Positions 1,247-21,596 of a stretch of DNA of 64,000 bases are shown one piece after another (the first letter of the stretch is position 1; every line of letters starts with the position of its first letter). The notes beneath the pieces were generated by a model that saw only the letters and a program-made list of their open reading frames with translations, had not been told where the DNA came from and searched no databases. This DNA comes from Ichthyobacterium seriolicida. GTDB lineage: Bacteria; Bacteroidota; Bacteroidia; Flavobacteriales; Ichthyobacteriaceae. The stretch spans positions 1,836,612-1,900,611 of the forward strand of contig NZ_AP014564.1 in assembly GCF_002369955.1 (NCBI RefSeq). Direction: 5' to 3'. A program made the position numbers and the translations under genes.

Positions 1247-1393
1247 GTGGAAAAAGCCAATTTTGTTGTTGGTTATAGTCCCTGAAATTTGTATTCATAC
1301 TATTTGATTATCAATCAGTCAGCAAGATAAACTAACAGGTAAAAACTACACCTTCAAACAAAAAAAAAGCTGCCTCGGTTTTGAGACAGCTTC
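1247..1393 (-). mobile_element. Remnant right end of an IS1182-type element
   Basis: This is near-identical to the right end of the element at 45039-46983. It includes the first codons of the transposase (start at 1298, MNTNFRDYNQ...) and the terminal TGAGACAGCTTC repeat. The coding part stops after about 17 codons, so it is a broken remnant. It lacks the roughly 220-bp MITE-like insertion seen in the other copy, so it shows what that region looked like before the insertion. Confidence 0.8.
1361..1393 (-). terminator. Rho-independent terminator from an IS end, serving the lipoprotein gene
   Basis: On the minus strand the sequence is a hairpin, AGCTGTCTC with GAGGCAGCT around AAAACC, followed directly by eight T residues. 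It lies 24 bases past the stop of the lipoprotein gene at 1417-2688. The same hairpin forms the right end of the IS1182-type element, so the IS end now appears to work as this gene's terminator. Confidence 0.7.
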
Positions 1394-1416
1394 ATTTGAG
1401 TTAAAACATGTGTTAT

Positions 1417-2688
1417 CTATGGATTGGGTATCCTCTTTTTAAACGCCTCTCTATCCCCCCTAGATTGGATTCGTTTATATTCTTCGGTGAAGGGCCCCCC
1501 GAGTAAACTCGTAACACTAATATAATCTGTCATGTCAATAGAAGATCTATCTATAGCATTTTGATCTTTACTAGACTTTAGCCCATTTATTCTTTGCTCC
1601 CTATAAACACTTACGTTATAAACCTTTCTACCCCCTGCAGGACCTACTGCAGTATATTTTATAGGATTAATTTCAGAATCTATAAACCTAACAGAAGTAA
1701 TAGGAGAATTTCCAGTATCCCCACTATATATTTCTGTTCCAGCAAGATTATCATTGTCAGCTGTAATAGTTGGAAGTAAATCACCACGATCTGCATTATA
1801 TGGAACTGTTACCATTATAGTATTATCATCGTGATTAATTGTACCAACTACATTACTATTTCCAAGGTTTTTATTTAAATTTTCAGAATTGTTGATATCA
1901 AAAATCAAAGTTTTTATCCTAGGTTCGGAGTTTTTAATTACTCCTACATTGTAAGTAGCAATAGTTCCATCTTCACCCGTTATTACATAACTTATAGTTT
2001 TAGCGCTCTCAAAGTTTTGAGGAATACCGCTTTCAGGGTTAACCTTGCCATTTCCATAAATCTCTATAGTTGGAATTAAACTACTAACATTTGCATCATG
2101 AGGAACATTAATAGTTATTGTATTATTATCCGAATCAGTAGTGCTAATAACACCATCTAATTCTTTAACAATTTTACCAGTACTTAGATTGTCCCCTTCT
2201 GCTTTAAACTTAAAAGATATTAACTTAGACGATTTTAAATCTTTAATAATTATAACCTTGTATACTTTTTTTTGTCCATTTTTACCGATTACTGTATACT
2301 CTGCAGAATTTGAACTAAAGGTGACTTCTTTCTTTTCATTATGCTCCATTGAAAAACTTGCACTAAAGGGAACTTTTTTCTTCTCATTAGGAGAAAAACT
2401 GACACCAGAATGAATTATTGTAGGTTTCAAACCGCTTAAAGTTGCAGATTCAGATAGGTGTAGTGTTATGGTAGGAGGAGTAAGGTTTTCATCGATAACA
2501 CCAATTCTATTTGCAAAAATTTTCCCCTCATTCTTAGATTTCTCTAATATAAATTTACTAATAGAGCATTCTCCACTATCATTATTTTTAAACTTATTAT
2601 TCTTTGTACAAGACAAAATAAACAACGACAAAAACGCAAAATAAAAAACACTCTTTAGAGTAGTAAAATAAAATGTCTTAGTAATCAT
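1417..2688 (-). CDS. Surface lipoprotein with three DUF5018-like repeats
   Basis: The 423-residue protein begins with a hydrophobic signal and a lipobox (LFILSC, Cys near residue 27), so it should be a lipoprotein. About three repeats of 80-100 residues follow, each running from a strand like LISFKFKAE or IKTLIFDIN, through VPHDANVSSLIPTI or VPYNADRGDLLPTI, to a Tyr-Val strand at the end (YTVIGKNGQKKVYKVIII). This is the pattern of DUF5018-type beta-sandwich domains in Bacteroidota surface proteins. No enzyme motif is visible. It is one of five intact members of a paralogous group in this window, with others at 8035, 11650, 48152 and 55678. Ligand and function are unknown; a role in adhesion or surface display is inference. 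Confidence 0.8.
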   Translation of the reverse strand: MITKTFYFTTLKSVFYFAFLSLFILSCTKNNKFKNNDSGECSISKFILEKSKNEGKIFANRIGVIDENLTPPTITLHLSESATLSGLKPTIIHSGVSFSPNEKKKVPFSASFSMEHNEKKEVTFSSNSAEYTVIGKNGQKKVYKVIIIKDLKSSKLISFKFKAEGDNLSTGKIVKELDGVISTTDSDNNTITINVPHDANVSSLIPTIEIYGNGKVNPESGIPQNFESAKTISYVITGEDGTIATYNVGVIKNSEPRIKTLIFDINNSENLNKNLGNSNVVGTINHDDNTIMVTVPYNADRGDLLPTITADNDNLAGTEIYSGDTGNSPITSVRFIDSEINPIKYTAVGPAGGRKVYNVSVYREQRINGLKSSKDQNAIDRSSIDMTDYISVTSLLGGPFTEEYKRIQSRGDREAFKKRIPNP

Positions 2689-2717
2689 ATTTATTCAAAT
2701 TTTGAATTATTAAAATA

Positions 2718-2725
2718 CAAAGTTA
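2718..2725 (-). promoter_or_regulatory. -7 box TAACTTTG for the lipoprotein at 1417-2688
   Basis: On the minus strand TAACTTTG fits the Bacteroidota -7 consensus TAnnTTTG, 30 bases before the ATG. No clear TTG lies at the -33 position. Confidence 0.4.
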
Positions 2726-2768
2726 ACACTTTTTCTTTTAAATATGCTAACATAGTAGCGAAATACTT

Positions 2769-2881
2769 TTTAACCTGGATTATCCCCGATTATTCATAAC
2801 TGAGTTGGATTAATAAAAAAAAACGCTTGAATCTTTTAAACTTATTGAAATTTAAGAGGTTGCTTAAGAAAATCCAGGTTA
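2769..2881. repeat. MITE-like repeat carrying the dispersed TGAGTTGGATTAATA motif
   Basis: AACCTGGATT near the left edge is repeated inverted as AATCCAGGTT near the right edge. Inside, at 2799-2815, is ACTGAGTTGGATTAATA, a motif that recurs at 11555, 49490, 49687 (inverted), 55341 and 57687. Part of the left end (GATTATTCATA) also matches the inverted repeat of the 220-bp element at 46706-46925. No coding capacity is visible. Confidence 0.6.
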
Positions 2882-2889
2882 TAATAGAT

Positions 2890-3669
2890 CTATACTTCTA
2901 TTTTTTTCAACACTACCTCTTTTCCATCAAATACTAAATAGGTATAATCCTTTACCCAGTCGCCAGTGTTAAAATATGTGCTTTTTTCAGAAAGTTTGAA
3001 CTCTAATGCCATATGCCTGTGACCGAACACAAAATAATCAAAGTGTTTTTCCTTTAGTTTTTCTCTGGAGAAAAGAATCAACTCTTCTCTATCTTCTCCA
3101 GTAAATACATTTTCACTTTTGCAGTATTTATTTTTGTTTCTATTGGAGAAATAATTAGCTATTCTGAATGATAAATCAGGATGAATTAAGTAAAACAAAG
3201 ATTGACATATGCGAGAGTGAAGTAATTTTCTTATGATTTTATATTTTTTACTCTTTGTTCCCAAACCATCACCATGGGCTATGAAAAAAGAATTATTATT
3301 TATATGTATTTCTTTTTCAGAATTAAAAATCGATATGTTTAATTCTTTTTCAAAGAAACTACACATCCAAAAATCATGATTCCCAGCAAAAAAATAAATC
3401 CTTATTCCCGAGTCAGACAACTCTGCTAATTTTCCTAAAACTCTTGTAAAACCTTTTGGAATGACGTGTTTATATTCAAACCAAAAATCGAACATATCAC
3501 CTAATAGGAATAGGACTTGTGCATCTTTTTTTATTGAATCTAACCAACCTACAAATATCTTCTCCCTCTTTAAACTCTCTTTACGATTAGGGATCCCAAA
3601 ATGCTGATCAGAGGCGAAATAAACTTTGTTATTACACAACAAGTTTATTTTTTCTACAGACAAACACAT
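2890..3669 (-). CDS. lpxH: UDP-2,3-diacylglucosamine diphosphatase
   Basis: The protein has 259 residues and the signature of calcineurin-like phosphoesterases: SDQHFG near the N-terminus (metal-binding Asp and His), LLGDMFDFWFEYKH, AGNHDFW, IAHGDG and FGHRHM. The spacing and the GDMFDFW block are those of LpxH. It hydrolyses UDP-2,3-diacylglucosamine to lipid X in lipid A synthesis, as a peripheral inner-membrane enzyme. The ATG at 3669 places the SDQHFG motif at about residue 20, as expected. A 52-bp piece of this gene is copied at 925-976. Lipid A functions also appear at 44121 (acyltransferase) and 59035 (KdsC). Confidence 0.9.
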   Translation of the reverse strand: MCLSVEKINLLCNNKVYFASDQHFGIPNRKESLKREKIFVGWLDSIKKDAQVLFLLGDMFDFWFEYKHVIPKGFTRVLGKLAELSDSGIRIYFFAGNHDFWMCSFFEKELNISIFNSEKEIHINNNSFFIAHGDGLGTKSKKYKIIRKLLHSRICQSLFYLIHPDLSFRIANYFSNRNKNKYCKSENVFTGEDREELILFSREKLKEKHFDYFVFGHRHMALEFKLSEKSTYFNTGDWVKDYTYLVFDGKEVVLKKIEV

Positions 3670-3747
3670 GCTCAGTTAAAATTGTTATAAACTTATAAGA
3701 ATATAATTTCTCATCATAGAATGATGAATCTTCTAAAAAAATGACAA

Positions 3748-4407
3748 CTAAACTATGAAACCGTCTTTCATCTCAAAAGTTTTATCAGCCATATCAGCAA
3801 ACTCTTGGTTGTGTGTTACTATTACAAAAGTTTGATTGTATTTTTCTCTCAGCTCAAAGAATAAGTTGTGAAGTTCCCTTGCTGTTTTAGAGTCTAAATT
3901 TCCTGAGGGCTCATCAGCAAAAACCACTAAGGGATTATTTATGAGAGCCCTACCCACGGCTACTCTTTGTTGTTCTCCCCCTGAAAGTTGAGAAGGCTTT
4001 TTGTTCTTTTTATTTTCTATTCCTAGAAAACTCATCAGCTCACTAGCTTTTTCAGCAGCCTTTTTCTTAGATTCTCCCTTTATAAAAGCAGGCATGCAAA
4101 TATTTTCTAAAGCTGTAAATTCTGGTAACAATTGATGAAATTGAAATATAAATCCTATATGTTCATTTCTAAACTTAGATAATTCTCTATCTCCGAGTTT
4201 ATATATCTCTATATCATTTATAAATAGAAAAGTATCCTTTTTTAAATCTGCTTTGTCTAAGGTTCCTAGTATCTGTAATAGAGTAGTTTTACCCGCTCCA
4301 GAGGCCCCTACTATAGATACTATTTCAGATTTCTCAACACTAAAATCTATTCCTTTTAAGATATGAGAATCGTTATAGCACTTATGTATATTATTTGCTC
4401 TTATCAT
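3748..4407 (-). CDS. lolD: Lipoprotein-releasing ABC transporter ATPase (LolD-type)
   Basis: It has all ABC ATPase motifs: Walker A GASGAGKTT, Q-loop IFQFHQ, signature LSGGEQQRVAVGRAL, Walker B VVFADEPSGNLDS and switch His in VTHNQE. FQFHQLLPEFTALENICMPA is characteristic of LolD among MacB/LolD-type ATPases. It should power release of lipoproteins from the inner membrane with LolC/E-type permeases, which are not in this window. I start it at the ATG at 4407 (MIRANNIHKCY), giving 219 residues, because the longer frame needs a TTG at 4416. Its likely substrates include the many lipoproteins encoded nearby. Confidence 0.88.
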   Translation of the reverse strand: MIRANNIHKCYNDSHILKGIDFSVEKSEIVSIVGASGAGKTTLLQILGTLDKADLKKDTFLFINDIEIYKLGDRELSKFRNEHIGFIFQFHQLLPEFTALENICMPAFIKGESKKKAAEKASELMSFLGIENKKNKKPSQLSGGEQQRVAVGRALINNPLVVFADEPSGNLDSKTARELHNLFFELREKYNQTFVIVTHNQEFADMADKTFEMKDGFIV

Positions 4408-4459
4408 TTTTCTCAAGAAAAAAAATAGCCTGATTAAAAAAAGGAAAAAAAATAAACGT

Positions 4460-5791
4460 CTAAATATCTCTGGTTATATCAAAATTTTCTAAGTATTCAG
4501 CTACTTTTTTTACGAATAGCCCTCCCATATACCCATCTATAACTCTATGATCGTATGAATGAGAGAGAAACACTTTGTGTCTGATGCCTATACTATCTCC
4601 CTGTGGGCTTTCTATCACTGATACTTTTTTAGATATTACCCCTGCAGCTAATATTGCCGCTTGAGGCTGATTTATTATAGGAGTCCCCATAATGTTACCG
4701 AAAGTTCCAATATTAGTGAACGTAAAAGTTCCGTTTTGAGTTTCAGCAGGGTTTAGATTACCACTTCTAGCTCTAGAAGCCAAGTCATTTACTTGTTCTA
4801 TTAATCCAAGAAGATTGTATTTATTAGCATCTTTAATAACAGGGACAATTAAGTCGCCATTGTCTAAAGCAGTAGCTATCCCTATATTTATGTATTTTTT
4901 TTTGATAATAAAATCCCCCTCTATAGAGATATTGATCATAGGAAAATCTTCTATAGTTTTAGCTATAGCTTCTATGAAAATAGGTGTAAAAGTTATTTTT
5001 TCTTTCTTCTTTTTTTGAAAATCTTCTTTAACTCTATCTCTCCACATGACTATATTAGTCACATCTGCTTCTACAAAAGAGGTCACATGAGCTGATGTAT
5101 TTATACTCCTGATCATATGTTCTGAAATGATCTTACGCGTATTGCTCATTTCTACAATCTCCTCATTTTCTCTAGCCAAACTAGTATTAAAACTTATTTC
5201 TTGAGCAGATATTACTTTGGGCTGATCATTTGTAGAATAAGATGTCTCTTTCTCCTCTACTATTTTTTGCCCTCTTTTTTTTATGTAATCTAAGACATCG
5301 TCTTTGGTAATTCTACCATTCTTACCTGATCCAATTATTCCTTGTATCTCATCTGTAGAGATATTTTCAGCCGCACACATACTTCTGACCAATGGAGATA
5401 TGGATCTATATTCTGTTAAATCTGGAGCTATTGGATCCTTTATGGCTTGAGCTTCTTTTAGAATAACATCCTCAGATAATTCTAATAATTCCGAAGGGGC
5501 ATGAGATAACTCTGAAGATTTACTGTTTTCTTCCTCTTGACTCTGAGGCTCATCAGTCTCTATAATAGCTATGACATCACCTACTCTTACAGTATCTTTT
5601 TTCTGAAAAAATATTTTACTCAACTTCCCAGATACTGGCGATGGAATCTCTGAATCTATTTTGTCGGTCGCTACTTCCAATACAGACTCTTCTGCATTTA
5701 CATTTTCACCTACTTTTTTGAGCCAAACGCTAACGGTAGCTTCATCTATGCTCTCGCCCATTTTGGGCATTTTTAGCTGAAATTCAGACAT
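4460..5791 (-). CDS. 2-oxoacid dehydrogenase E2 (dihydrolipoamide acyltransferase)
   Basis: The domain order is textbook. A lipoyl domain (residues 1-80) carries the lipoylated Lys in EVATDKIDSEI. An acidic linker follows, then an E3-binding domain around 130-170 (ISPLVRSMCAAENI...GKNGRITKDDVLDYI), then the catalytic acyltransferase domain ending in SYDHRVIDG with the active His and Asp. At 443 residues it matches single-lipoyl E2 proteins. Flavobacterial homologues usually serve the branched-chain 2-oxoacid dehydrogenase or pyruvate-type complexes, and sequence alone does not settle the substrate. E1 and E3 genes are not adjacent. A -7 box lies just upstream. Confidence 0.88.
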   Translation of the reverse strand: MSEFQLKMPKMGESIDEATVSVWLKKVGENVNAEESVLEVATDKIDSEIPSPVSGKLSKIFFQKKDTVRVGDVIAIIETDEPQSQEEENSKSSELSHAPSELLELSEDVILKEAQAIKDPIAPDLTEYRSISPLVRSMCAAENISTDEIQGIIGSGKNGRITKDDVLDYIKKRGQKIVEEKETSYSTNDQPKVISAQEISFNTSLARENEEIVEMSNTRKIISEHMIRSINTSAHVTSFVEADVTNIVMWRDRVKEDFQKKKKEKITFTPIFIEAIAKTIEDFPMINISIEGDFIIKKKYINIGIATALDNGDLIVPVIKDANKYNLLGLIEQVNDLASRARSGNLNPAETQNGTFTFTNIGTFGNIMGTPIINQPQAAILAAGVISKKVSVIESPQGDSIGIRHKVFLSHSYDHRVIDGYMGGLFVKKVAEYLENFDITRDI

Positions 5792-5808
5792 AAGTAACTT
5801 TTAAACTA

Positions 5809-5816
5809 CAAAGTTA
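5809..5816 (-). promoter_or_regulatory. -7 box TAACTTTG for the E2 gene
   Basis: TAACTTTG on the minus strand matches TAnnTTTG, 18 bases before the ATG. This implies a very short leader. No -33 TTG is seen at the expected spacing. Confidence 0.4.
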
Positions 5817-5889
5817 GTAGTTTTTATTTTTCTGCATAAAAAAAACAACTTAGATTCGTTCAGTAATAAACGCTTGAGACCTCACTATA

Positions 5890-6390
5890 TTAATGTACAC
5901 TACTAGATATGTTTTTTAAATCTCTATCGAACAAATACAATCCCCCCTTATCATTTCCAATTAATCCTATCTTATCAAGGATCGTTTTTGCTAATGTCTC
6001 TTCCTCTACCTGCTCAGATACAAACCATTGTAAAAAGTTGTGGGTAGCGTAGTCTTTCTCTTGCAGACTTTTAAACACTAGTTCATTTATGTTTTCAGAC
6101 ACCTTAACTTCATGATCGTAAAGCATTTGGAATAAGTTATTTAGAGATTCAAAATCTTCTTGAGGAGCCTCTAAACTAGGAACAACTACTCCTCCGCCCC
6201 TTTCATTGATGTACTTTATGATTTTAAGCATATGCCCTCTTTCTTCTTCGGCATGTCCATACAAGAATGTAGAGACTCCTTCATACCCCTGTTCTTCAGC
6301 CCAACAAGCCATAGAAAGGTATATTTGAGATGCCATTGCTTCCATTTTTATTTGCTGATTCAAATCTTTTATGATGTTTTTAGATAACAT
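5890..6390 (-). CDS. ftnA: Ferritin (non-haem iron storage)
   Basis: The 166-residue four-helix protein shows the ferroxidase-centre residues in order: Glu in QQIKMEAMASQIYLSM, E-E-x-x-H in HAEEERGHMLKI and the Gln/Glu pair in FVSEQVEEETLAKTI. Length and the LYLFDRDL tail match bacterial FtnA. It oxidises Fe(II) and stores the ferric mineral in a 24-mer in the cytoplasm. It is transcribed alone, divergent from recO. The other iron-linked gene in the window is the broken haem-degradation gene at 57908. Confidence 0.92.
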   Translation of the reverse strand: MLSKNIIKDLNQQIKMEAMASQIYLSMACWAEEQGYEGVSTFLYGHAEEERGHMLKIIKYINERGGGVVVPSLEAPQEDFESLNNLFQMLYDHEVKVSENINELVFKSLQEKDYATHNFLQWFVSEQVEEETLAKTILDKIGLIGNDKGGLYLFDRDLKNISSSVH

Positions 6391-6430
6391 AAACTACTCT
6401 TTTTTAAATATTAAAAAAAACCTGGGCGGA

Positions 6431-6438
6431 CAAAAGTA
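6431..6438 (-). promoter_or_regulatory. -7 box TACTTTTG for ferritin
   Basis: TACTTTTG on the minus strand fits TAnnTTTG, 41 bases before the ferritin start. It sits back-to-back with the recO box at 6489-6496 in the divergent intergenic region. Confidence 0.45.
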
Positions 6439-6488
6439 CAATTTTTAATGAAACATTAATATTCATTAAACAATTTGCTTTATAATCA

Positions 6489-6496
6489 TAAATTTG
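6489..6496 (+). promoter_or_regulatory. -7 box TAAATTTG for recO
   Basis: TAAATTTG fits the TAnnTTTG consensus and ends 28 bases before the recO ATG. No TTG is present 17-23 bases upstream. Confidence 0.4.
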
Positions 6497-6524
6497 AGCC
6501 CTTTACTTTTGAAGGCCTTTACCT

Positions 6525-7223
6525 ATGTTTACTCAAACCCAAAGCGTGGTTTTAAACTCCTTGAAGTATACAGACAATAGAATTATTCTCAATTGTTATA
6601 CGGAAAAATTAGGATTTAAGTCTTATTTGGTTAATCTGAATAATTACTTTAAAAAATCTTATTCCCAACCTCTGTCTCAGTTAAATCTAATAGTTTACAA
6701 CAGGGGAAATAAATTAGAACACATAAGAGAAATAGTATCTCATCACATTTACGATAGCATCTATACCGATCCTAATAAGATTTCTGTAACCCTATTTTTA
6801 TCTGAGATATTGACCATGACCATAACAGATGAATTTACAAATGAACCATTGTTCAAGTTTATTTCGAATTCTATTATGTGGTTCGATCAACTGACAGAAC
6901 ACCAAAATTTTTATTTATTTTTCATGAAAGAACTATTGAAATATATAGGAATATACCCTCTCATGTACGAAAATAATGATGAAGTATTTTTTGATATGAA
7001 AGAAGGCCGGTGTAGTTTAACGTGTCCAGATCACAATTTCTATTTGGAAAATGATGAATTATTCTTGTTTAATAAAATGTTAAAAATGGATAAATACTGC
7101 CGTACTGTTTTCACAACAAATGAAAAAAAGACACTTAACAAAATGCTCATATCTTACTACAAAGTAAATCTAGATAGATTTAAAACTCCCAATTCTTTGG
7201 AAATGATAGAGATGGGATTTTAA
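6525..7223 (+). CDS. recO: DNA repair protein RecO
   Basis: The 232 residues start with an OB-fold segment (TQSVVLNSLKYTDNRIILNCYTEKLGFKSYLVN) that is diagnostic for RecO of Bacteroidota, and continue into the helical C-terminal half. RecO helps load RecA onto SSB-coated single strands in the RecFOR pathway. The C-terminal zinc site is reduced to a single CSLTCPDH-like cluster. It is divergent from ferritin, and the next gene downstream, the membrane protein at 7312, lies 88 bases away. Confidence 0.88.
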   Translation: MFTQTQSVVLNSLKYTDNRIILNCYTEKLGFKSYLVNLNNYFKKSYSQPLSQLNLIVYNRGNKLEHIREIVSHHIYDSIYTDPNKISVTLFLSEILTMTITDEFTNEPLFKFISNSIMWFDQLTEHQNFYLFFMKELLKYIGIYPLMYENNDEVFFDMKEGRCSLTCPDHNFYLENDELFLFNKMLKMDKYCRTVFTTNEKKTLNKMLISYYKVNLDRFKTPNSLEMIEMGF

Positions 7224-7311
7224 TATTTTAGAAAAAATAGCAATGCTTATTTCTATTTTAATCGTCTTTTATTTTGAATGTTTATTTATAATTTAGCAAA
7301 AAAAATAAGAG

Positions 7312-7857
7312 ATGAAAATAAATAATTCAACCATCAGCCCATTGATTCAAACTCTTGTAATTACTGGATTACTATTGAGTAGATTAGTTCCTCATCCGCC
7401 TAACTTTACCCCTGTATTTGCAGCAGCTCTTTTCTCTGGAACATACTTTTACAGTAAAAAATGGGCTTATTTATTCCCTTTGTTTATCGTGATAAGTTCT
7501 GATTTAATCATAAACTACATAACAAATGAATCCCTTATAATAAGAGCTAATCTAGTAACATACTTTTGTGTACTTCTAACTTCTTTTATGGGATCACTCA
7601 TGAGATCTGGAACAACTCCTATCAAAGTCATTTTCTACTCTACGTTGAGTTCGGTTTGTTTTTTTATAATATCTAATTTTTTTGTTTGGTATTCTGGAAA
7701 CCTATATCCACATAATATTGGAGGAATAACAGCCTGTTATGTAGCCGCCCTACCTTTTTTCAAAAACACATTGTTGAGTGGAGCTGTATATTCTTCTGTC
7801 TTTTACACCAGCTATTTTTATATCACAAATTATTTTCATATACCTAAAAAGCAGTAA
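7312..7857 (+). CDS. DUF6580-like integral membrane protein
   Basis: The 181-residue protein is hydrophobic with about five membrane segments. The block LVPHPPNFTPVFAAALFSGTYF near residue 25, followed by an SD pair in VISSDLIINY and an FFVWYSGNLYPHN loop, matches the DUF6580 family of small membrane proteins, which look like transporter S-components. Function is unknown; a role in uptake is only inference. It follows recO on the same strand but has its own 88-base gap. Confidence 0.7.
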   Translation: MKINNSTISPLIQTLVITGLLLSRLVPHPPNFTPVFAAALFSGTYFYSKKWAYLFPLFIVISSDLIINYITNESLIIRANLVTYFCVLLTSFMGSLMRSGTTPIKVIFYSTLSSVCFFIISNFFVWYSGNLYPHNIGGITACYVAALPFFKNTLLSGAVYSSVFYTSYFYITNYFHIPKKQ

Positions 7858-8034
7858 TTAAACATTCAAAAAATTCTTTTTAAGTCATATTGAACCAAAG
7901 AATTATCATTTTAAAAATCACTACCTTAGTCGGGCCAACACCTTGGGATAAATTGAAGTCGTTTTGCGCAGTTTTAATATTTAAAATCTTATTAAAATTT
8001 ACAATACACTTTTTATTTACACTATTTATTTTAA

Positions 8035-8937
8035 ATGAAAAAAATGCTTTTGAGATTTCTATATAACAATGTGAAAAGTATCGTAAATAATTACTTTAAC
8101 AGAGCCGTTTTAACATTCATTGCCGCATGTTTATTTTCTTGTAACCAAGAGAAGAACATCCTAAATAAAAAATCTTCTTATTCACCAAATAGAGAAAAAG
8201 AGATCCTATCTTTTTATTTCAAAAAGGAAGACAACAAAACTAATTTAGTATCTAGAATAGGAAATTATGATATAGAAGGCAAAAGAGTGACTGACAATCA
8301 ACAGAATTATATATATGCCGTTTTTCCCAGTGGAATGAATATTGGAAGCGCAAGTGACAGAACTCTTGTGCCAACTGTTGTCATTTCAGATAAGTCTAAT
8401 GTAAGTCCTGCTGATAACGAACCTAAAGAATTCTTTAAGGTTAATGATCCTCAAATTTATACTGTAGAAGCAGAGGATAAGAGCACGAAAAGCTATAAAA
8501 TATTAGCTTTGAAGTTCCCTGTAGCTTTTAGTTCAAGTGGAACATCCATACCAACTGAAAAAAATTCTTTTACTACCAAAGATATTGAAGCTACTACTGT
8601 GGATAATTTTAACGAAATAATAACCTTTGGCGATCCTACAAATCCTATTTTACCTCACGATACTCTTGACACTATAACCATAAACGGGATAGTTTTTAGT
8701 AAAACTCCAAATGGTATTAAAGAGACTGATATTACCATATTTCCAAAAGATATTTTGTTTACCAAAAAAGGAGATAAAAAAAATAATGCCAATAAATATG
8801 TCGGCGATATTATTGTTACTTCTATAATTAGGAATACTTCCTTTTCAAGGAAATACACACTTGAACTATACAAAAAAACGTTACCGCCGCCTTTGCCGAC
8901 TTTACCAGAATCATCTGACGCTACAAAAGTCCAGTAG
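8035..8937 (+). CDS. DUF5018-like lipoprotein without stalk
   Basis: The 300-residue protein has a basic N-terminus, a hydrophobic stretch and a lipobox ending in Cys (ACLFSC, near residue 36). Two beta-rich modules follow. The segment TVDNFNEIITFGDPTNPILP has a clear counterpart (TVDNLSQTIIFGSTDNPNLK) in the 1104-residue protein at 11650, so the two are close paralogues. This one stops after a Pro-rich tail (LPPPLPTLPE) where the other continues into a long Ala-rich stalk. The two paralogues flank the restriction-modification gene. Function is unknown, presumably surface exposed. Confidence 0.75.
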   Translation: MKKMLLRFLYNNVKSIVNNYFNRAVLTFIAACLFSCNQEKNILNKKSSYSPNREKEILSFYFKKEDNKTNLVSRIGNYDIEGKRVTDNQQNYIYAVFPSGMNIGSASDRTLVPTVVISDKSNVSPADNEPKEFFKVNDPQIYTVEAEDKSTKSYKILALKFPVAFSSSGTSIPTEKNSFTTKDIEATTVDNFNEIITFGDPTNPILPHDTLDTITINGIVFSKTPNGIKETDITIFPKDILFTKKGDKKNNANKYVGDIIVTSIIRNTSFSRKYTLELYKKTLPPPLPTLPESSDATKVQ

Positions 8938-8970
8938 GAAGTTTTCCGATTATGTTTTGTTGATATAAAA

Positions 8971-9008
8971 AAAATAGGAAGAGTTGAAATATCGCATCTT
9001 CCTATTTT
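8971..9008. terminator. Bidirectional terminator between the lipoprotein and the RM gene
   Basis: AAAATAGGAAGA at 8971-8982 pairs perfectly with TCTTCCTATTTT at 8997-9008. The A and T runs flank the stem on both sides, so it can end transcription of the plus-strand lipoprotein and of the minus-strand RM gene. Confidence 0.8.
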
Positions 9009-9046
9009 GCCCGAGAATATTTTTTTTTTAAAAAATATTTACTCAA

Positions 9047-11431
9047 CTATTTAGTTTCCTCTTCTGACTCCCATATTTTATTAATTTCTTGATTTATACC
9101 TTTTTTATTTTCTCCAATTTTTTGTTCTAATTTTTGTATTTCCTTTTCTCTCTTTTGAATTGACTTTAATATTTTTTTCTGTTCTTCCATAGGAGGTAAA
9201 GGAATTTGAACCTTAGACAACTTAGATGAAGAGATGTACTTAGTAGTTTGAGTAGTAGAAATCTTAATTAAACTATCCTCTAAAGACTTAGCCGCATAGA
9301 ATAAAAATTCTGGCAAAATTTTATCCTTATACTCATCTCTTATTATCAAAGCGTTTATTTGTTGATTCGTAGTTACTGGAACTTTAGCCAAAGCCACTTT
9401 CCCTATGGTAGCAGTACAAGATAGTAAAACCGTATTTACAGGAAGTAATTTTATAGTAGTCTCTTCTAAGGCTTTTTCTGTTATGGTTTGTTTGGTTTTA
9501 TAAACCATTTCACCATTTTCTAAATCATTGAGAGTAAACCAACAAATGCTTCCGTTGTTCCAGTAAAATTCGTTTTTTCTCAAGGGTGTGGTTCCAGTGT
9601 GAATATGACATAAATCACCTAGCTTAATCAAAGGATAAGACGATAGATTTTTAGTTTCTCTGTACAAGCTGCCGACTAGGTTATAGTCATTATCCCTCAC
9701 TTTATCTAGATCTATAATTTCAAAGCCCATTTCAAGAATATTATCCTGTAAAGATGGATTTTCATCTACTTTTTTAATATCTGAACTCTCTATTTTTTTT
9801 AGATCATTACTTCCTTTAATTTTTCTCTTGTGATTATCAAGAGTTACACCTATATTATTCGTATTGAAAAAGGAGAAATTTTCTTGATCATTATTCATAT
9901 GAGCATCAGTAAAATACAAGATGTCTGTTTTAACCTCTGTGTATGGCAAGAAAGTCCCTTTAGGAAGAGAAATAACACTGTGTAATTTTGCCCTTGACAA
10001 TAAAAACTTACGAACTTCAACACTATTCTTTCTAAATAAAAATCCCTCTGGAACCACCAATGCCATCCTTCCACCCTTTTTTAAAGCTCTAAGACAATGT
10101 AAAACACATGCAGCATCACCGCTATTTCTAGCTATCCCACTGTAGTAAAGAGGAGAGATATCATTTTCTATAATAGTTTTTCTGTCTTTGGTTATTTTTC
10201 TGCTTATATTAAGAGAAAAAGGAATACTGCTAACTACTAAATCAAATCTTTTAACCTTATCTATCTCCTTGCCTTTAAACATAGCCTTTTGCGTATAATC
10301 AGGCTTTTTAAGAGAATTAATCTGTTGTATATCGCTGTTTATATGACCATTTAAAATCATATTCATCTTTGCAATCCTAGAAATTTCAGTTATTTCCCTA
10401 CCGTAAAAAGTGTCATTTTTCAGCATTTCTAAATCTAGTTCGTCTTTAATTATATTGTTCTTTTTTATGTAATTGAACGATTCAACTAGGAAACCTCCAG
10501 TACCGCAAAAAGGATCGTAAATTTTCTCTTTAAGTTTAGGAGCGACTAAATTTATCATAGTCTTTACAATATTTCTAGGCGTGAAATACTCTCTTAGATC
10601 ACTTTCTATCAAGGTCGCTTTTTCCAAAAAATATTCAAAAACCTCTCCCTTTACATCCATACTGGAAGTAGAAAGAACTAGGGGATCGATAGCGTTTATT
10701 ATATGTCTGAAATTATGAGTTTTTTTTATAGAAATCGGCTTGAAGATATCTTTACCATATTTATCTTCTACCTGTTTTAATACATAGCTATTTACGTAGT
10801 CTATAATGCGATCGTCTGGTTGGGATTTTATGGCATCCCATAGAGACTTCCTATCATCCTGATATAATAGCTTCAAAAACATAATATTTGAAAATTCTAC
10901 AAATCTTTCAACCTCAGTTGTCAAACCTTCGCTTCTTAAAACTTCATTCAAATTTTTGAACTGATCTACAGATTCTTCTCTAGATTCTTTTACATACTGA
11001 GGAATTGTCCAAGCTTCATTACTATTTACCTTTAAAAATTCTAAAACTTCTTTTTCATTTATCACCCCTCTTACTTCTTTACCATTTAAAACGAGCTCTT
11101 TGTTATTAGGAACAAAACGAGCTTCACAATAAGAGCCATTCATAGCAAAAACCAAAGGCGCATCTAGAGCCTTTGCATACTCCATACCTCTTTTCAGTGC
11201 CAAATCAAGGTTTTTAGCACTTTTCTTAACCTCTATTACAGCTATTGGCTTATTAGTTCCTGTTTGATACAGTATACAATGGGGTTTTTTGTCTCCTAAC
11301 TTCTGCTGTTGATCTAGATATGGTGGCTCAGAGAAATATACATTTTTCTCATACGCCTCACCCTCTATATTCCAACCATTATTTACTAAATTAGTACTTA
11401 GGATAGATTCTCTTTGTTTTTCTTTTAACAT
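9047..11431 (-). CDS. Fused restriction-modification protein: R-type N-domain, adenine methylase, specificity domain
   Basis: One 794-residue chain joins three parts. Residues about 1-150 resemble the N-terminal nuclease domain of type I R subunits, with IAVIEVKKS supplying the Glu-x-Lys pair near residue 66. Residues about 160-580 are an HsdM-type N6-adenine methylase with SAM motif DPFCGTGG near 305 and a motif IV reading SSIPFS near 401. Residues about 600-790 are a single HsdS-like target-recognition domain (IKLGDLCHIHTGTTPLRKNEFYW...) ending in a long Lys/Glu coiled coil. This is the architecture of type IIG-like single-chain enzymes. The Asp expected before the Glu-x-Lys pair is replaced around KKPHCILY, so cleavage activity is doubtful. 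No separate hsdR or hsdS gene is nearby. Confidence 0.82.
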   Translation of the reverse strand: MLKEKQRESILSTNLVNNGWNIEGEAYEKNVYFSEPPYLDQQQKLGDKKPHCILYQTGTNKPIAVIEVKKSAKNLDLALKRGMEYAKALDAPLVFAMNGSYCEARFVPNNKELVLNGKEVRGVINEKEVLEFLKVNSNEAWTIPQYVKESREESVDQFKNLNEVLRSEGLTTEVERFVEFSNIMFLKLLYQDDRKSLWDAIKSQPDDRIIDYVNSYVLKQVEDKYGKDIFKPISIKKTHNFRHIINAIDPLVLSTSSMDVKGEVFEYFLEKATLIESDLREYFTPRNIVKTMINLVAPKLKEKIYDPFCGTGGFLVESFNYIKKNNIIKDELDLEMLKNDTFYGREITEISRIAKMNMILNGHINSDIQQINSLKKPDYTQKAMFKGKEIDKVKRFDLVVSSIPFSLNISRKITKDRKTIIENDISPLYYSGIARNSGDAACVLHCLRALKKGGRMALVVPEGFLFRKNSVEVRKFLLSRAKLHSVISLPKGTFLPYTEVKTDILYFTDAHMNNDQENFSFFNTNNIGVTLDNHKRKIKGSNDLKKIESSDIKKVDENPSLQDNILEMGFEIIDLDKVRDNDYNLVGSLYRETKNLSSYPLIKLGDLCHIHTGTTPLRKNEFYWNNGSICWFTLNDLENGEMVYKTKQTITEKALEETTIKLLPVNTVLLSCTATIGKVALAKVPVTTNQQINALIIRDEYKDKILPEFLFYAAKSLEDSLIKISTTQTTKYISSSKLSKVQIPLPPMEEQKKILKSIQKREKEIQKLEQKIGENKKGINQEINKIWESEEETK

Positions 11432-11476: not shown

Positions 11477-11484
11477 CAAATGTA
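11477..11484 (-). promoter_or_regulatory. -7 box TACATTTG for the RM gene
   Basis: TACATTTG on the minus strand fits TAnnTTTG and lies 46 bases before the start of the RM gene. No -33 TTG is visible. Confidence 0.4.
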
Positions 11485-11649: not shown

Positions 11650-14600
11650 ATGAAAATATCTAATCTAAAAAAAACATCATTGCTCATATTGTCAGTTCTT
11701 TTTACATTTTCATGTGATAAGAAAAATATCATTCCCGATGATGAAAATTCTGGAAGCACAATTCCTAAAGAGATAATAAGTGTAAAGTTAAAGAAATCTC
11801 AAAATCCTCAAATAGGAGGTGTTGATATAAATGCTGAAGTCATTGAATCAAACGAACAAAAAATCTATATTTTATTATTGCCTCATGATGTAAATACTGA
11901 TACTAAAGAATTTAAACCTACTGTTGAGATATCCCAAGGCACTACTATAAGCCCTGAGAGTGGGTCAGCTCAAGAGCTTGGAAAAATCGTTATTACTGAA
12001 AATGTTTTTGATTTATCACAATCAGGTGTAGAGTATACTGTTACAGCTGATCAAGACAGTTCAGTTAAAAAATATAGAGTTATAGCACTCAGAGCTCCTG
12101 ATGCTATTGACCCTACTAAAACTTTAATTAAAGCTGATGAAAAGCTTTTATCTAATTCTGATGTTGCTACTCCAACTGTTGATAATTTAAGTCAAACAAT
12201 AATATTTGGTTCTACAGATAATCCAAATCTAAAGAATAAACTTGCTGATGAGAATATTGAATTAGATATAACTATAGGATTTAATAGAATAATTCCAGAT
12301 GGCGGTCAGGATACTTACAAAAATATCCCTTCCCCAACTACTCCAACTACAGTTTCTTTCAAAAAGAAAGAAGATGATGAAAATACTTATGAAGCCATTA
12401 TTCCAGTCACTTATACAATAGAGGACAAAACCTTTATAAAAAATTATAAAGCTACTATATACAAAAAGTCTAATTCTAAAGTTAAAGAGGAACTTAGTAC
12501 TTCTATAGCTACTGCTAACGATAAAATTGGAGAAGCTAATGCTACTGCTACTGCAGCCTCTGATATTGTTAAACCCTTAACTGATGATGTTAAGGCTATT
12601 GCTACTCAAGCTGTTGCTGATGCTAAGGTTGCTCTTCAGACTGCTACTACTGCTGTTGAGGCTGCTACTAAAGCTGTGACTGATGCTACTACTCCTGAAG
12701 CTTTAACTCAAGCTAAGACTAAAGTTGAAGAAACTAACCAAGCTGCTGAGGATGCTAAAACTAAGGCTGATGCTGCTAAGAGTGCTGCTGATGCCGCTAA
12801 GCTTGCTGCTGACACTAAAGTTCAGACTGATGCTATAGCTTCTGCTGAGAATACTGCTAATAACGCTAGTACAGTTGCTAATGCTGCTGAGACTCAAGCT
12901 AATGCTGCTGAGGCTCAAGCTAATGCTGCTGAGGCTCAAGCTAGTGCCGCTAATACTGTTACAGCTGCTACTCAAGCTTTGAAAAAAGCTAACGAAGCTC
13001 TTACTACTGCTAAGGCCGCTGTTCAAACTGCCACTGAAGCTGAAACAGCTATCCCTGATACAGCTACTGTAGCTAAGGGTAAAGCTACTCAAGCCAAAAC
13101 TAAAGCTAACCAAGCTGTAACTAAAGCTGAAGGAGCTATTGCTACTATTGCTGAAAATGCTGCTAATAATGCTAGTACAGTTGCTGAAGCTGCTGAGACT
13201 CAAGCTAATGCCGCTAATACTGTTTCTCTTGCTTCTACAGCAGTGACTTCTGCTAAAACAGCTCTTGACACTGCTAAGTCTGCTGTTCAAACTGCCACTG
13301 AAGCTGAAACAGTTATCCCTGATACAGCTACTGTAGCTAAGGGTAAAGCTACTCAAGCCAAAACTAAAGCTAACCAAGCTGTAACTAAAGCTGAAGGAGC
13401 TATTGCTACTATTGCTGAAAATGCTGCTAATAATGCTAGTACAGTTGCTGAAGCTGCTGAGACTCAAGCTAATGCCGCTAATACTGTTTCTCTTGCTTCT
13501 ACAGCAGTGACTTCTGCTAAAACAGCTCTTGACACTGCTAAGTCTGCTGTTCAAACTGCTACTACTGCTAAATCGGGTTTAACTGATGCAGCTACTCAGG
13601 ATACTAAAAATAAAGCTACAGCAGCAGTTACTGCTACCACTGCTGCTGTAACCAAAGCTGAAGGAGCTATTGCTACTGCTGCTGAAAAAGCTGCTGAGAA
13701 AGCTGAAACTGATGCTACTGCTGCCACCACAGTTACTAATGCTAAAACTGCTCTTGCTGCTGCTACCCAAGCTGTTACTGTTGCTACTGAGGCTAAAATA
13801 GCTCTTGACGCTACTACCAATACTGATGCTAAAACTAAAGCTACCCAAGCTGTAACTAAAGCTGAAGGAGCTATTGCTACTCTTGCTGAGAATGCTGCTA
13901 CTGATGCTGAGACTCAAGCCAATTCTGCTAAAAACACTACTGATGCTACTCAAGTTGATACAGCCACCACAAATGTAACTACTGCTAAAACTGCTCTTGC
14001 CACTGCTACCCAAGCTGTTACTGTTGCTACTGAGGCTGAAACAGCTATTATTGATGCTACTATTAAGGGCAGAGCTACCGCTGCTAAGAATAAAGCTACC
14101 CAATCTGTTACTACTGCTAAAGAAACTCTTAAAAAAGCTATTTTAGCTTTAGCTACTATAGCTGAAACTGCTGCTACCACAGCTAAGAATAACGCAGAAA
14201 CAGCTGAGACTAATGCTAAGGATGCTAAGACTAAAGCTACTACAGCTGAGAGTGATGCTACTGAAGCTAAGAATAAAGCTACTACAGCTGAGACTAATAC
14301 TACTTCTTTAGCTTCTGCTATTTCATCTATAAGTGGCGATTCTGTTGATGCTACTAACGCCGCTTCTGCTACTACAACAGCTAATAGTGCTGAGGCAGCT
14401 AAATCTGCTGCTGAAACTGCAGCTAATAGTGCTGAAGCAGCTAAATCTGCTGCTGAAACCGCTAAGGGATCTTCTGAAGATGCTGCCACTGAGGTTGGAA
14501 AAGTTAAAACCGCTATAGAAGCTTTAATCTCTGCTATAGCTGGCACTTCTATTGATGCTTCCGAAGCTAAAAGTAAAGCTGATACAGCTCAGGCTAAAGC

Positions 14601-14964
14601 TGAAGAAGCTGCTACCGCTGCTGGAGAGGCTAAAACTAAAGCTGAAGAAGCTGAAACTGCTGCTAATATGGCTAAAGAAAAAGCTGAAGAAATTAAGAAA
14701 AAAGCTGCTGAAGCTAAAGCTGAAGCTGAAAAAATTACAACTGGAAAATCTAAGTCTGATGCTGAAACTGCTGCTCAAAAAGCTAAAGATGCAGCTACTG
14801 CGGCTAAGGAAGCGACTACTCAAGCTGAGGCTAAGGCTACTGAGGCTAAAAGTGCTGCTACTCAAGCTGAGACTAAGGCTGATGCTGCTAAGGATGCTGC
14901 TGATCAGGCTAAAACCGCTATTGACGAAGCTAAAGCGGCTATTGAAGCTATTACTATTCTATAA
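11650..14964 (+). CDS. Giant Ala-rich stalk lipoprotein
   Basis: The 1104-residue protein starts with a signal peptide and lipobox (FTFSC, Cys near residue 22). Residues about 30-280 are DUF5018-like modules closely related to the lipoprotein at 8035. From about 285 to the end it is almost only Ala, Thr, Lys, Glu, Asp, Asn and Val, in a heptad-like pattern (A-x-x-A-x-x-A) predicting a very long helical coiled coil. Within it a 264-bp (88-residue) unit is tandemly repeated at 13021-13284 and 13285-13548 with very few changes. GCT is the dominant Ala codon, which creates long false frames on both strands. It should form an extended surface rod anchored by its lipid. Function, such as adhesion or a spacer, is unknown. 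Confidence 0.8.
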   Translation: MKISNLKKTSLLILSVLFTFSCDKKNIIPDDENSGSTIPKEIISVKLKKSQNPQIGGVDINAEVIESNEQKIYILLLPHDVNTDTKEFKPTVEISQGTTISPESGSAQELGKIVITENVFDLSQSGVEYTVTADQDSSVKKYRVIALRAPDAIDPTKTLIKADEKLLSNSDVATPTVDNLSQTIIFGSTDNPNLKNKLADENIELDITIGFNRIIPDGGQDTYKNIPSPTTPTTVSFKKKEDDENTYEAIIPVTYTIEDKTFIKNYKATIYKKSNSKVKEELSTSIATANDKIGEANATATAASDIVKPLTDDVKAIATQAVADAKVALQTATTAVEAATKAVTDATTPEALTQAKTKVEETNQAAEDAKTKADAAKSAADAAKLAADTKVQTDAIASAENTANNASTVANAAETQANAAEAQANAAEAQASAANTVTAATQALKKANEALTTAKAAVQTATEAETAIPDTATVAKGKATQAKTKANQAVTKAEGAIATIAENAANNASTVAEAAETQANAANTVSLASTAVTSAKTALDTAKSAVQTATEAETVIPDTATVAKGKATQAKTKANQAVTKAEGAIATIAENAANNASTVAEAAETQANAANTVSLASTAVTSAKTALDTAKSAVQTATTAKSGLTDAATQDTKNKATAAVTATTAAVTKAEGAIATAAEKAAEKAETDATAATTVTNAKTALAAATQAVTVATEAKIALDATTNTDAKTKATQAVTKAEGAIATLAENAATDAETQANSAKNTTDATQVDTATTNVTTAKTALATATQAVTVATEAETAIIDATIKGRATAAKNKATQSVTTAKETLKKAILALATIAETAATTAKNNAETAETNAKDAKTKATTAESDATEAKNKATTAETNTTSLASAISSISGDSVDATNAASATTTANSAEAAKSAAETAANSAEAAKSAAETAKGSSEDAATEVGKVKTAIEALISAIAGTSIDASEAKSKADTAQAKAEEAATAAGEAKTKAEEAETAANMAKEKAEEIKKKAAEAKAEAEKITTGKSKSDAETAAQKAKDAATAAKEATTQAEAKATEAKSAATQAETKADAAKDAADQAKTAIDEAKAAIEAITIL
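13021..13548 (+). repeat. 264-bp tandem repeat, two near-identical units
   Basis: Units 13021-13284 and 13285-13548 are in frame (88 codons each). The one difference I saw changes ETAIPD to ETVIPD. A third, partial unit begins at 13549 and then diverges. The near identity points to recent expansion by slippage or recombination. Confidence 0.85.
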
Positions 14965-18973: not shown

Positions 18974-20086
18974 ATGAAAATAGGTATTCCAAAAGAACTT
19001 AAAAACAATGAAAATAGAGTAGCTATGACTCCCTCTGGAATTATAGAATTACTAAAATACCAACATCAGGTATATGTACAGTCCTCAGCCGGGATTAACA
19101 GCGGAATTACAGATGAAGAATACATAAATGCAGGAGCTACAATATTGCCTACCATAGAAGATGTATATTCTAAATCAGATATGATAATAAAGGTAAAAGA
19201 ACCTATTGAATACGAATATCCCTTGGTAAAAGAGAATCAATTGTTGTTTACTTACTTTCATTTTGCATCTTCCAAATCTCTTTTAGATGCCATGATAAAA
19301 AGTAATTCTGTCTGTTTGGCCTATGAAACTGTAGAAAAGTCCGACAGAAGTTTACCTCTACTCGCTCCCATGTCTGAAATAGCAGGGAGAATGGCAGCTC
19401 AACAAGGAGCTAAGTATTTGGAAAAACCTCTCAAAGGAAAAGGGATGTTATTAGGTGGAGTGCCTGGAGTAAAGCCAGCAAAAGTACTGGTATTAGGCGG
19501 TGGAATAGTAGGAACTCAAGCGGCAAAAATAGCAGCTGGCTTTGGAGCTAACGTAACTATCATGGATATTTCTTTAGAGAGACTGAGAAGATTAGAAGAA
19601 ATTTTACCAGCAAATGTGTTTACTGAAATGTCTAATAAGTACAATATTGAAAAAAATATAAAAACATCTGATCTTATCATAGGAGCTGTTTTAACCCCAG
19701 GAGCTAAAGCACCTCACTTAATAACTAGAGATATGCTAAAACAAATGAGACCTAAAACGGTAATAGTCGACGTATCGGTAGATCAAGGGGGATGTATAGA
19801 AACTGGTTCTCCTACAACACACGAAGATCCAATATTTATAATAGATGATATAATCCACTATTGTGTGACTAATATGCCAGGAGCCGTTCCATATACCTCA
19901 ACAATAGCACTGACTAATGCTACTTTACCTTATATTATACAATTGGCAAATAAAAATTGGAAAGATGCCTGCAAGGAAAATAAAGAATTAAAAAAAGGAT
20001 TAAATGTAATAAAAGGGGAAATAGTATATGAAGCAGTATCCCAAGCATTTAATATGCCTTATAGCAATGTAGAAAACTTTTTGTAG
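18974..20086 (+). CDS. ald: Alanine dehydrogenase
   Basis: The 370-residue protein starts MKIGIPKELKNNENRVAMTP, the family signature with the substrate-binding Arg. It has catalytic residues in YFHFASS and the Rossmann motif VLVLGGGIVGTQAAKIAAGFGA near 170-190. The segment VDVSVDQGGCIETGSPTTHEDP is also diagnostic. The enzyme interconverts L-alanine and pyruvate with NAD and ammonia. The next gene starts on the base after its stop, so the operon ald-tatD-trmD is tight. Confidence 0.95.
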   Translation: MKIGIPKELKNNENRVAMTPSGIIELLKYQHQVYVQSSAGINSGITDEEYINAGATILPTIEDVYSKSDMIIKVKEPIEYEYPLVKENQLLFTYFHFASSKSLLDAMIKSNSVCLAYETVEKSDRSLPLLAPMSEIAGRMAAQQGAKYLEKPLKGKGMLLGGVPGVKPAKVLVLGGGIVGTQAAKIAAGFGANVTIMDISLERLRRLEEILPANVFTEMSNKYNIEKNIKTSDLIIGAVLTPGAKAPHLITRDMLKQMRPKTVIVDVSVDQGGCIETGSPTTHEDPIFIIDDIIHYCVTNMPGAVPYTSTIALTNATLPYIIQLANKNWKDACKENKELKKGLNVIKGEIVYEAVSQAFNMPYSNVENFL

Positions 20087-20869
20087 ATGTACTTCATAGA
20101 TACTCATTCGCATTTATATCTTGAACAATTTGATCTAGATAGGGATGAAATAATTGATAGAAGTATAAAAGCTGGTATTCATAAAATATATTTACCGTCT
20201 ATATCTGGTGATTATATAGATAAAATGCTTTCACTAGAAAATAGATATCCAAATAACTGCTTTGCCATGATAGGACTGCATCCCTGTTATGTAAAAGATG
20301 ATGTAGATAAAGAATTAGATATAGTAAGAAAATGGCTATTAGATAGGGATTTCATAGCCATAGGAGAGATAGGGATGGATAAACATTGGGATACCACTTA
20401 TATAAAAGAGCAGGAAAGGGCTTTTATCGAACAGATAAGATTGGCTAAAGAGATAAATAAACCCATTGTCATACACTGTAGAGAGGCTTTTGATGAAATC
20501 TTCAAAGTCTTAGATAAAGAAAGTGATAATAGATTAAAAGGCGTTTTTCATTGTTTTTCTGGAAACTTAGAACAAGCTCAAAGAGTTTTATCATACGGAT
20601 TAAAAATAGGCATAGGAGGTATAGTGACATTTAAAAACGGTGGACTAGATAAATTTTTAGATAAAATACCAATAGAAAACATAGTATTAGAAACAGACTC
20701 TCCCTATTTAGCACCAAACCCATATAGGGGAAAGAGAAATGAAACCTGTTATCTAATAGAAATAGCTAATAAAGTAGCTTCATTGTATAGTCTACCTATA
20801 GAGGAAGTTATGAATATAACTAGAGAAAACAGTGAACAGTTATTTCAACCAAACGACAATATAAAATGA
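20087..20869 (+). CDS. tatD: TatD-family metal-dependent hydrolase
   Basis: The 260-residue TIM-barrel protein shows the TatD metal ligands: DTHSHL at the N-terminus, GEIGMD (Glu), PIVIHCREA (His), GVFHCFSG (His) and [10 protein letters not shown] (Asp). Members are 3'-5' exonucleases or D-aminoacyl-tRNA deacylase-like enzymes. Its ATG directly follows the ald stop and its end overlaps trmD by 4 bases, so translation is probably coupled. Confidence 0.9.
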
Positions 20870-21546
20870 GGATAGATATAATTACAGCTATACCTCAATT
20901 ATTAGATAGTTTTTTTGGAAACTCTATAATTAAGAGGGCCATAGATAAGAAAATAGTTGAGATAAAGATCCACAATTTAAGGGATTATTCTAATAATAAA
21001 TACAAGCAAATAGACGACTATCAATTTGGAGGAGGATCTGGAATGGTTCTAATGATAGAGCCCATAGACAAGTGCATAGATATGTTAAAAAGCCAGAGAG
21101 AATACGATGAAATAATATATATGACTCCTGATGCAAAAATTCTAGAACAGTCTATGTGTAATAAATTATCTATTAAAAAAAATATAATAATACTGTGTGG
21201 TCATTATAAAGGAATAGATCAAAGAATAAGAGATAATATTATCACCTTGGAGATTTCTATAGGAAATTTTGTGTTGTCTGGAGGAGAATTAGCGGCTGCT
21301 ATTTTAACAGACAGCATAGTTAGGTTAATTCCTAATGTGTTGGGAGATGGCACCTCTGCTCTTAGCGATTCATTTCAAGACGGTTTGTTATCAGCACCAA
21401 TATATACTCGTCCATCTGAATACAAAGGACAAAAAGTTCCCGAAATATTACTATCGGGAGATCAAAAAAAAATAGATGAATGGAGAACCTCCAAATCTAT
21501 AGAAAGAACTAAAATCCTAAGACCCGAATTACTAAAAGACGATTAA
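20866..21546 (+). CDS. trmD: tRNA (guanine37-N1)-methyltransferase
   Basis: The 226 residues contain the SPOUT knot signatures of Trm[38 protein letters not shown] and [17 protein letters not shown], then the flexible linker and [20 protein letters not shown]. It methylates G37 next to the anticodon and prevents frameshifting. The start overlaps tatD by ATGA. The operon ends at the hairpin at 21551-21589. Confidence 0.95.
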
Positions 21547-21550
21547 TATA

Positions 21551-21596
21551 ATTTATACAGACACTATCGTGAAAAGCATCTGTATAAATAAAAAAT
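21551..21596. terminator. Convergent terminator between trmD and map
   Basis: ATTTATACAGA at 21551-21561 pairs with TCTGTATAAAT at 21579-21589, followed by an A-rich stretch. It lies between the convergent trmD and map genes and overlaps the end of map. Confidence 0.7.

Follow-up and report, generated by a model that had tools for sequence, protein, structure and literature searches.

The window analyzed here (the whole 64,000-nucleotide stretch of Ichthyobacterium seriolicida contig NZ_AP014564.1) carries a gene for a single-chain R-M-S restriction-modification homologue that is probably a disarmed enzyme, with a dead nuclease and a crippled methylase, surviving either as a relic or as a noncatalytic DNA-binding protein. 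We infer the loss of both activities, together with dimerization and DNA binding, from comparison of the 794-aa protein with its homologues. The gene was probably acquired by horizontal transfer and belongs to a widespread, motorless R-M-S family borne by phages and plasmids. The features on which this reading is based are listed in Table 1.

Table 1. Features of the R-M-S gene and its surroundings (positions in the window)
Feature	Position	Strand	Basis or remark
R-M-S single-chain restriction-modification homologue, 794 aa	9047..11431	-	Uninterrupted from ATG to stop
HsdR-type PD-(D/E)xK nuclease domain, residues 1-110	11102..11431	-	NF046051 and 3h1t matches; predicted strand-strand-helix core
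Linker and HsdM-N-like helical region, residues 111-256	10664..11101	-	Aligns with HsdM structures from residue 150
Gamma-class N6-adenine methyltransferase domain, residues 257-595	9647..10663	-	PF02384 N6_Mtase, 166 bits, E 1.7e-48
Single type I TRD (Methylase_S), residues 602-770, canonical	9122..9628	-	PF01420, 95.5 bits, E 5.4e-27
Long C-terminal helix, residues 748-787	9071..9190	-	Predicted structure; putative dimerization role
His51 at catalytic Asp position	11279..11281	-	Asp in 98/98 homologues, His 1/99
Cys52	11276..11278	-	Tyr in 97/98 homologues, Phe in one
E67-V-K69, ExK pair intact	11225..11233	-	E and K in 99/99
Arg81 at Gln of QxxxY (RecB-type) motif	11189..11191	-	Gln in ~98% of homologues
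Arg280 in DLGEYFTPR segment	10592..10594	-	Gly in all homologues
SAM-binding motif I DPFCGTGGF, residues 306-314, intact	10490..10516	-	Same as family
GHINS, residues 362-366, in place of near-invariant GDGHS loop	10334..10348	-	Family alignment
Motif IV S402-I-P-F405	10217..10228	-	Family N(M/I)P(Y/F); Asn402 in 98/98 homologues, Ser 1/99
Flanking lipoprotein, 300 aa, multicopy family	8035..8937	+	Neighbor only
Flanking lipoprotein, 1104 aa, alanine-rich repeat tail	11650..14964	+	Neighbor only
Candidate Bacteroidota -7 box TACATTTG, 53 nt upstream of ATG	11477..11484	-	Weak; 0.17 expected by chance

The N terminus of the protein matches the EcoAI-type HsdR model NF046051 (residues 8 to 101; E value, 1.1e-8), and the family profile matches the solved HsdR N-domain fragment 3h1t over residues 5 to 111 (E value, 1.8e-9) and, over the methylase, the methylase chains of BsaXI, EcoKI, and EcoR124I. 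The Pfam HSDR_N models give scores of 19 to 33 bits with relatives and do not match the 794-aa protein itself. Taken together, the nuclease, methylase, and TRD matches indicate that the R-M-S architecture is right. A sequence-only reading of this DNA had described one polypeptide joining an HsdR-type N-domain, an adenine methylase, and one TRD, and the Pfam, NF046051, and 3h1t matches and the predicted structure all agree with it. Scans of the protein with Pfam and HsdR-type models gave no helicase match, i.e., it is without a translocase motor. The PF01420 score of its TRD compares with 41.5 bits for the TRD of L131, the nearest homologue; on the basis of this Pfam score the TRD looks sound, being too variable for the constraint test described below. 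The long C-terminal helix would correspond to the usual dimerization helix of half-S proteins. A check of the open reading frame for breaks found no stop codon and no frameshift, and a pseudogene with a broken reading frame is rejected.

An AlphaFold2 model computed with 55 family sequences (mean pLDDT, 89.1; pTM, 0.83) predicts that the fold of the protein is intact. In this model, residue 51 opens the strand formed by residues 52 to 55 and E67-K69 is at the end of the strand formed by residues 62 to 68, which is a PD-(D/E)xK-like arrangement, while residue 402 lies at the end of a methylase strand. In the PDB, the model is most similar to type I methylases, to the type IIG enzyme BpuSI, and to the type IIB enzyme BsaXI.

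Single-sequence scans of genome contigs and viral contigs returned no relatives, but alignment-based scans did find them: 213 related stretches in bacterial and archaeal genomes, 80 of which were kept, and 112 in viral contigs, of which 80 were likewise kept. From these loci, 98 distinct homologues were extracted, giving a family alignment of 99 sequences with the query. The sources are phages, plasmids, and many bacterial and archaeal phyla; many relatives are in Acinetobacter temperate phages, and two full-length or near full-length relatives are on plasmids (Acinetobacter and Geobacillus). Complete homologues are mostly ~750 to 800 aa (one TRD) or 930 to 1000 aa (two TRDs). Identities of 30 to 56% indicate common descent over the whole R-M part, and the query falls within a 12-row clade with an SH-aLRT value of 100. 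Phyla are intermingled in the family tree, which points to horizontal spread. Judged by these comparisons, R-M-S fusions make up a mobile family of type IIG-like proteins that is already established. In Acinetobacter temperate phages (as at L045, positions 19989 to 22256; NC_019541.1, positions 587 to 2854), the R-M-S gene adjoins the repressor, as expected for a defense gene expressed from a prophage. Homologues from Rickettsia endosymbionts (L094, L108, and L120) are shortened to 493 to 621 aa yet keep the nuclease Asp and the motif IV Asn, the reverse of the I. seriolicida pattern.

The nearest of the 98 assembled homologues, L131, is 54% identical overall and 67% identical over 554 compared R-M columns, and it shares with the I. 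seriolicida protein an insert after motif IV. Its gene lies directly downstream of terminase- and portal-like genes on viral contig IMGVR_UViG_3300035698_015452 (names read by eye from translations). Compared with the I. seriolicida protein, L131 has all catalytic residues standard and a different TRD. At each altered near-invariant position compared, both L131 and L100 (the two closest of the 98 homologues) have the standard residue, so the substitutions can be placed on the branch leading to the query itself. A finding of normal residues in close relatives had been named in advance as counting against an unusual enzyme class, and when we looked for such residues we found them in these two proteins.

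Replacement of the Asp expected before the Glu-x-Lys pair, which the sequence-only reading had already noticed, is confirmed by the alignment. That reading had missed the Tyr52-to-Cys and Gln81-to-Arg changes in the nuclease and, in the methylase, the GDGHS-to-GHINS and Gly280-to-Arg changes. In EcoR124I, the equivalent Asp-to-Ala mutant, D151A, gives no cleavage (PMC2602864), and the catalytic cluster of BsaXI consists of E73, D90, E105, and K107 (PMC11997821). Because of the EcoR124I phenotype, the BsaXI catalytic residues, and the broken QxxxY motif, we regard the nuclease as dead with high confidence, as far as sequence can tell. A weak nuclease, one of the possibilities raised earlier, is thus unlikely, since the Asp change abolishes cleavage in EcoR124I and QxxxY is broken as well.

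The earlier contrast between SIPF and NPPF in methylase motif IV was half right. The Asn-to-Ser change is abnormal (1 of 99 sequences), but NPPF is not the norm in this family: the second position of the motif holds Met (65 sequences) or Ile (22 sequences), together 87 of the 99, so only the Ser is out of place in SIPF. SIPF as a new motif IV in itself is rejected, N(M/I)P(F/Y) being the family norm. Across the whole R-M-S family, Met or Ile stands for the first Pro of NPPY/F; a keyword search of the open literature for the N(M/I)P(Y/F) motif strings found no paper, and literature searches found no study of the R-M-S family by name. Beside motif IV, the near-invariant Gln407 is Leu in the I. 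seriolicida protein. With moderate confidence, we regard the methylase as crippled, i.e., methyl transfer would be abolished or strongly reduced.

I. seriolicida JBKA-6T is a fish pathogen and was, at publication, the sole recognized species of its family (PMC5331501). The window has a G+C content of 32.4%, and the published value for the chromosome is 32.8% (PMC5331501). The same 1.92-Mb genome contains three complete type I systems (L206, positions 2571 to 8791; L207, positions 3432 to 9603; and L208, positions 1333 to 8011), whose HsdR and HsdM proteins keep D...ExK and NPPF (read by eye from translations). This indicates that the loss of residues is specific to the R-M-S gene, and a genome-wide loss of restriction systems is rejected. 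As had been proposed, the gene sits between two paralogous lipoprotein genes (28% identity; E value, 3e-23). A meaningful link to this neighborhood is rejected, since the lipoprotein family has 43 matches genome-wide; its members have a common N-terminal domain and widely differing lengths and are partly clustered at ~1.727 to 1.750 Mb. The tail of the 1104-aa lipoprotein has tandem repeats of 21 and 42 nt (7 and 14 residues) and of 264 nt and is probably a coiled-coil stalk. Upstream of the R-M-S gene there is no clear -33 box, and terminator and promoter scans around the gene gave results at chance level. Insertion elements and integration sites next to the gene were considered and rejected: the end repeats are low-complexity AT matches, and those neighboring open reading frames that can be named are not mobile genes. 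Elsewhere in the window (positions 55678 to 57600, plus strand), a 640-aa protein combines DUF5018, PKD, and DUF285 repeats; DUF285 takes its name from proteins of Mycoplasma.

In a leave-one-out analysis of 92 nonredundant sequences, restricted to positions at least 95% conserved in the first 560 residues (the nuclease-methylase part), the I. seriolicida protein has 15 of 83 near-invariant positions altered, compared with a median of 1 and a next-highest value of 9 (rank 1 of 92). Its terminal branch is 0.56, while that of its sister L131 is 0.12. This long end branch and the largest number of altered near-invariant positions in the family would be expected if the gene were a plain relic, recently inactivated, functionless, and drifting towards loss, and the shortened Rickettsia endosymbiont homologues suggest that loss is common in the R-M-S family. 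A long branch alone is an insufficient explanation, since three relatives with similar change at variable sites have far fewer near-invariant changes (4/89, 4/88, and 5/84, compared with 15/84 here; Fisher P = 0.0008), and when near-invariant change is regressed on general change across the family, the I. seriolicida protein is 7.6 residual SD above expectation.

To produce the near-invariant excess, plain neutral decay would need to have replaced ~13% of codons. A mutation simulation (substitutions only, with indels left out) predicts ~5 to 6 nonsense hits at 10% replaced codons, 8 to 9 at 15%, and ~8 to 11 at 15 to 18%, which is the degree of replacement at the near-invariant positions, and none is observed. 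Furthermore, in the 85 to 95% conservation class, 9 of 83 positions are altered here and 43 of 235 in the three comparable relatives, which is no excess, and with that ~13% neutral fraction far more change would be expected in this class than is seen (P of about 7e-5). The lack of nonsense codons and the normal 85 to 95% class argue against simple drift of the whole protein and suggest that constraint was lifted mainly at sites demanded by catalysis. In this test, which treats a single lineage and an ancestor inferred from two relatives, the substitution pattern fits lost catalysis with the fold retained, as judged from sequence, and contradicts plain neutral decay; very recent loss together with adaptive or clustered changes could mimic it. 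A plain relic would require a very recent loss that struck catalytic residues preferentially, and the absence of a stop or frameshift and the preserved general constraint speak against it; we consider this form of the disarmed enzyme possible without calling it probable.

The same observations can be read as the mark of a maintained pseudoenzyme, in which the fold would be maintained by selection because it binds DNA, has a regulatory role, or serves as a decoy for phage antirestriction DNA mimics that would protect the three type I systems. In the boldest version, which we consider less likely than not, both catalytic centers would have been given up while the SAM pocket and the DNA-recognition domain stayed under selection along with the fold, leaving a protein that binds specific DNA sequences or acts as such a decoy. 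Constraint at moderately conserved positions matches that in relatives whose motifs are intact, the expected nonsense codons are missing, and the TRD is canonical. On the other side, the gene has no partner or conserved neighborhood, and the lineage is represented by one genome. We consider this second form of the disarmed enzyme about as likely as the first.

It is unlikely that only the nuclease has been lost and that Ser402 still supports m6A transfer, which would make the protein a solitary sequence-specific methylase and a possible epigenetic regulator. In favor of such a methylase are the intact SAM motif I, YFTPR, and TRD and an open reading frame unbroken over 794 codons. Some methylation could survive because Ser fills the first motif IV position in other groups of amino-methyltransferases; among methylases generally, D, S, and N can all occur there (PMC10050889). 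However, all 98 homologues have Asn at position 402, and in the type I methylase M.PtoI, changing both the Asn and the Trp of motif IV to Ala severely impairs the enzyme (PMC10050889). A literature search found no test of the motif IV Asn-to-Ser change in this methylase class. The changes at Gln407, the GDGHS loop, and Gly280 would also be unexpected if methylation were still under selection. The earlier suggestion of a methylase-only regulator is thus weakened by the lost Asn and the other near-invariant residues, while the occurrence of Ser in other methylase groups speaks for it. A working enzyme of altered design, in which His51/Cys52 and Ser402 form a changed active apparatus, is very improbable: although the protein is full length and keeps ExK and the SAM site, neither change occurs in any of the 98 relatives, L131 and L100 are standard, and three separate nuclease residues are changed. 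The new type IIG-like variant that had been envisaged earlier gives way to a change in one lineage, all close relatives having the normal Asp and Asn, with no new catalytic design.

From domain homology, intact members of the family would dimerize through their one TRD and C-terminal helix and read a bipartite site, in which the M domain would methylate adenine, while the HsdR-type domain would cut unmethylated DNA nearby without ATP translocation. The disarmed I. seriolicida protein, having lost the metal-binding Asp and the QxxxY Gln, should not cut, and without the motif IV Asn and its near-invariant neighbors it would transfer little or no methyl group. With its fold, SAM motif I, and TRD retained, it may do no more than bind DNA, and perhaps SAM as well. 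Where nuclease and methylase share one chain, as in R-M-S enzymes, losing methylation first should be harmful to the host; a full-length copy in which both centers are altered thus shows a route by which such selfish enzymes can be disarmed. If the fold is truly maintained, a restriction enzyme would have been reused for binding alone. The family is noteworthy in that it is mobile and motorless, occurs in phages, plasmids, bacteria, and archaea, and has an unusual motif IV.

Of the known systems, the single-chain type IIG enzymes of R-M-S form, each equivalent to half a type IIB enzyme (PMC6158711), likewise have a nuclease, a gamma-class methylase, and one TRD in one polypeptide and no ATP motor, and the 794-aa protein also has the SAM-binding motif I of such enzymes. 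It differs from them in that its nuclease is HsdR/EcoAI-like and its family motif IV is N(M/I)P(Y/F), and also in that the I. seriolicida member has neither an intact D...ExK site (His51; ExK intact) nor, by sequence, an intact motif IV (Ser402). The homology to type I systems is in the HsdR N-domain, HsdM, and the HsdS TRD; in contrast to these systems, the R-M-S protein is one chain and has no SF2 helicase translocase, nor does it have the helicase motor that lies between nuclease and methylase in single-chain type ISP enzymes. Phage counterparts include the N-6 DNA methylase of Acinetobacter phage YMC/09/02/B1251 (YP_007010582.1) and its relatives. This methylase shares the architecture, with 35% identity covering 99% of the protein, and is encoded beside the phage repressor gene but, unlike the I. 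seriolicida protein, keeps the catalytic Asp and Asn (PDY and NMPF). The type IIB enzymes BcgI and BsaXI (PMC3874165 and PMC11997821) have, like the R-M-S protein, an N-terminal PD-(D/E)xK domain fused to an HsdM-like methylase, as well as type I TRDs, and BsaXI is matched by both sequence and fold. Type IIB enzymes have two TRDs, either fused or on an S subunit, whereas the I. seriolicida protein has its S part fused, a single Methylase_S domain, and no separate S gene adjoining; it is the ~975-aa family members with two TRDs that resemble fused type IIB enzymes.
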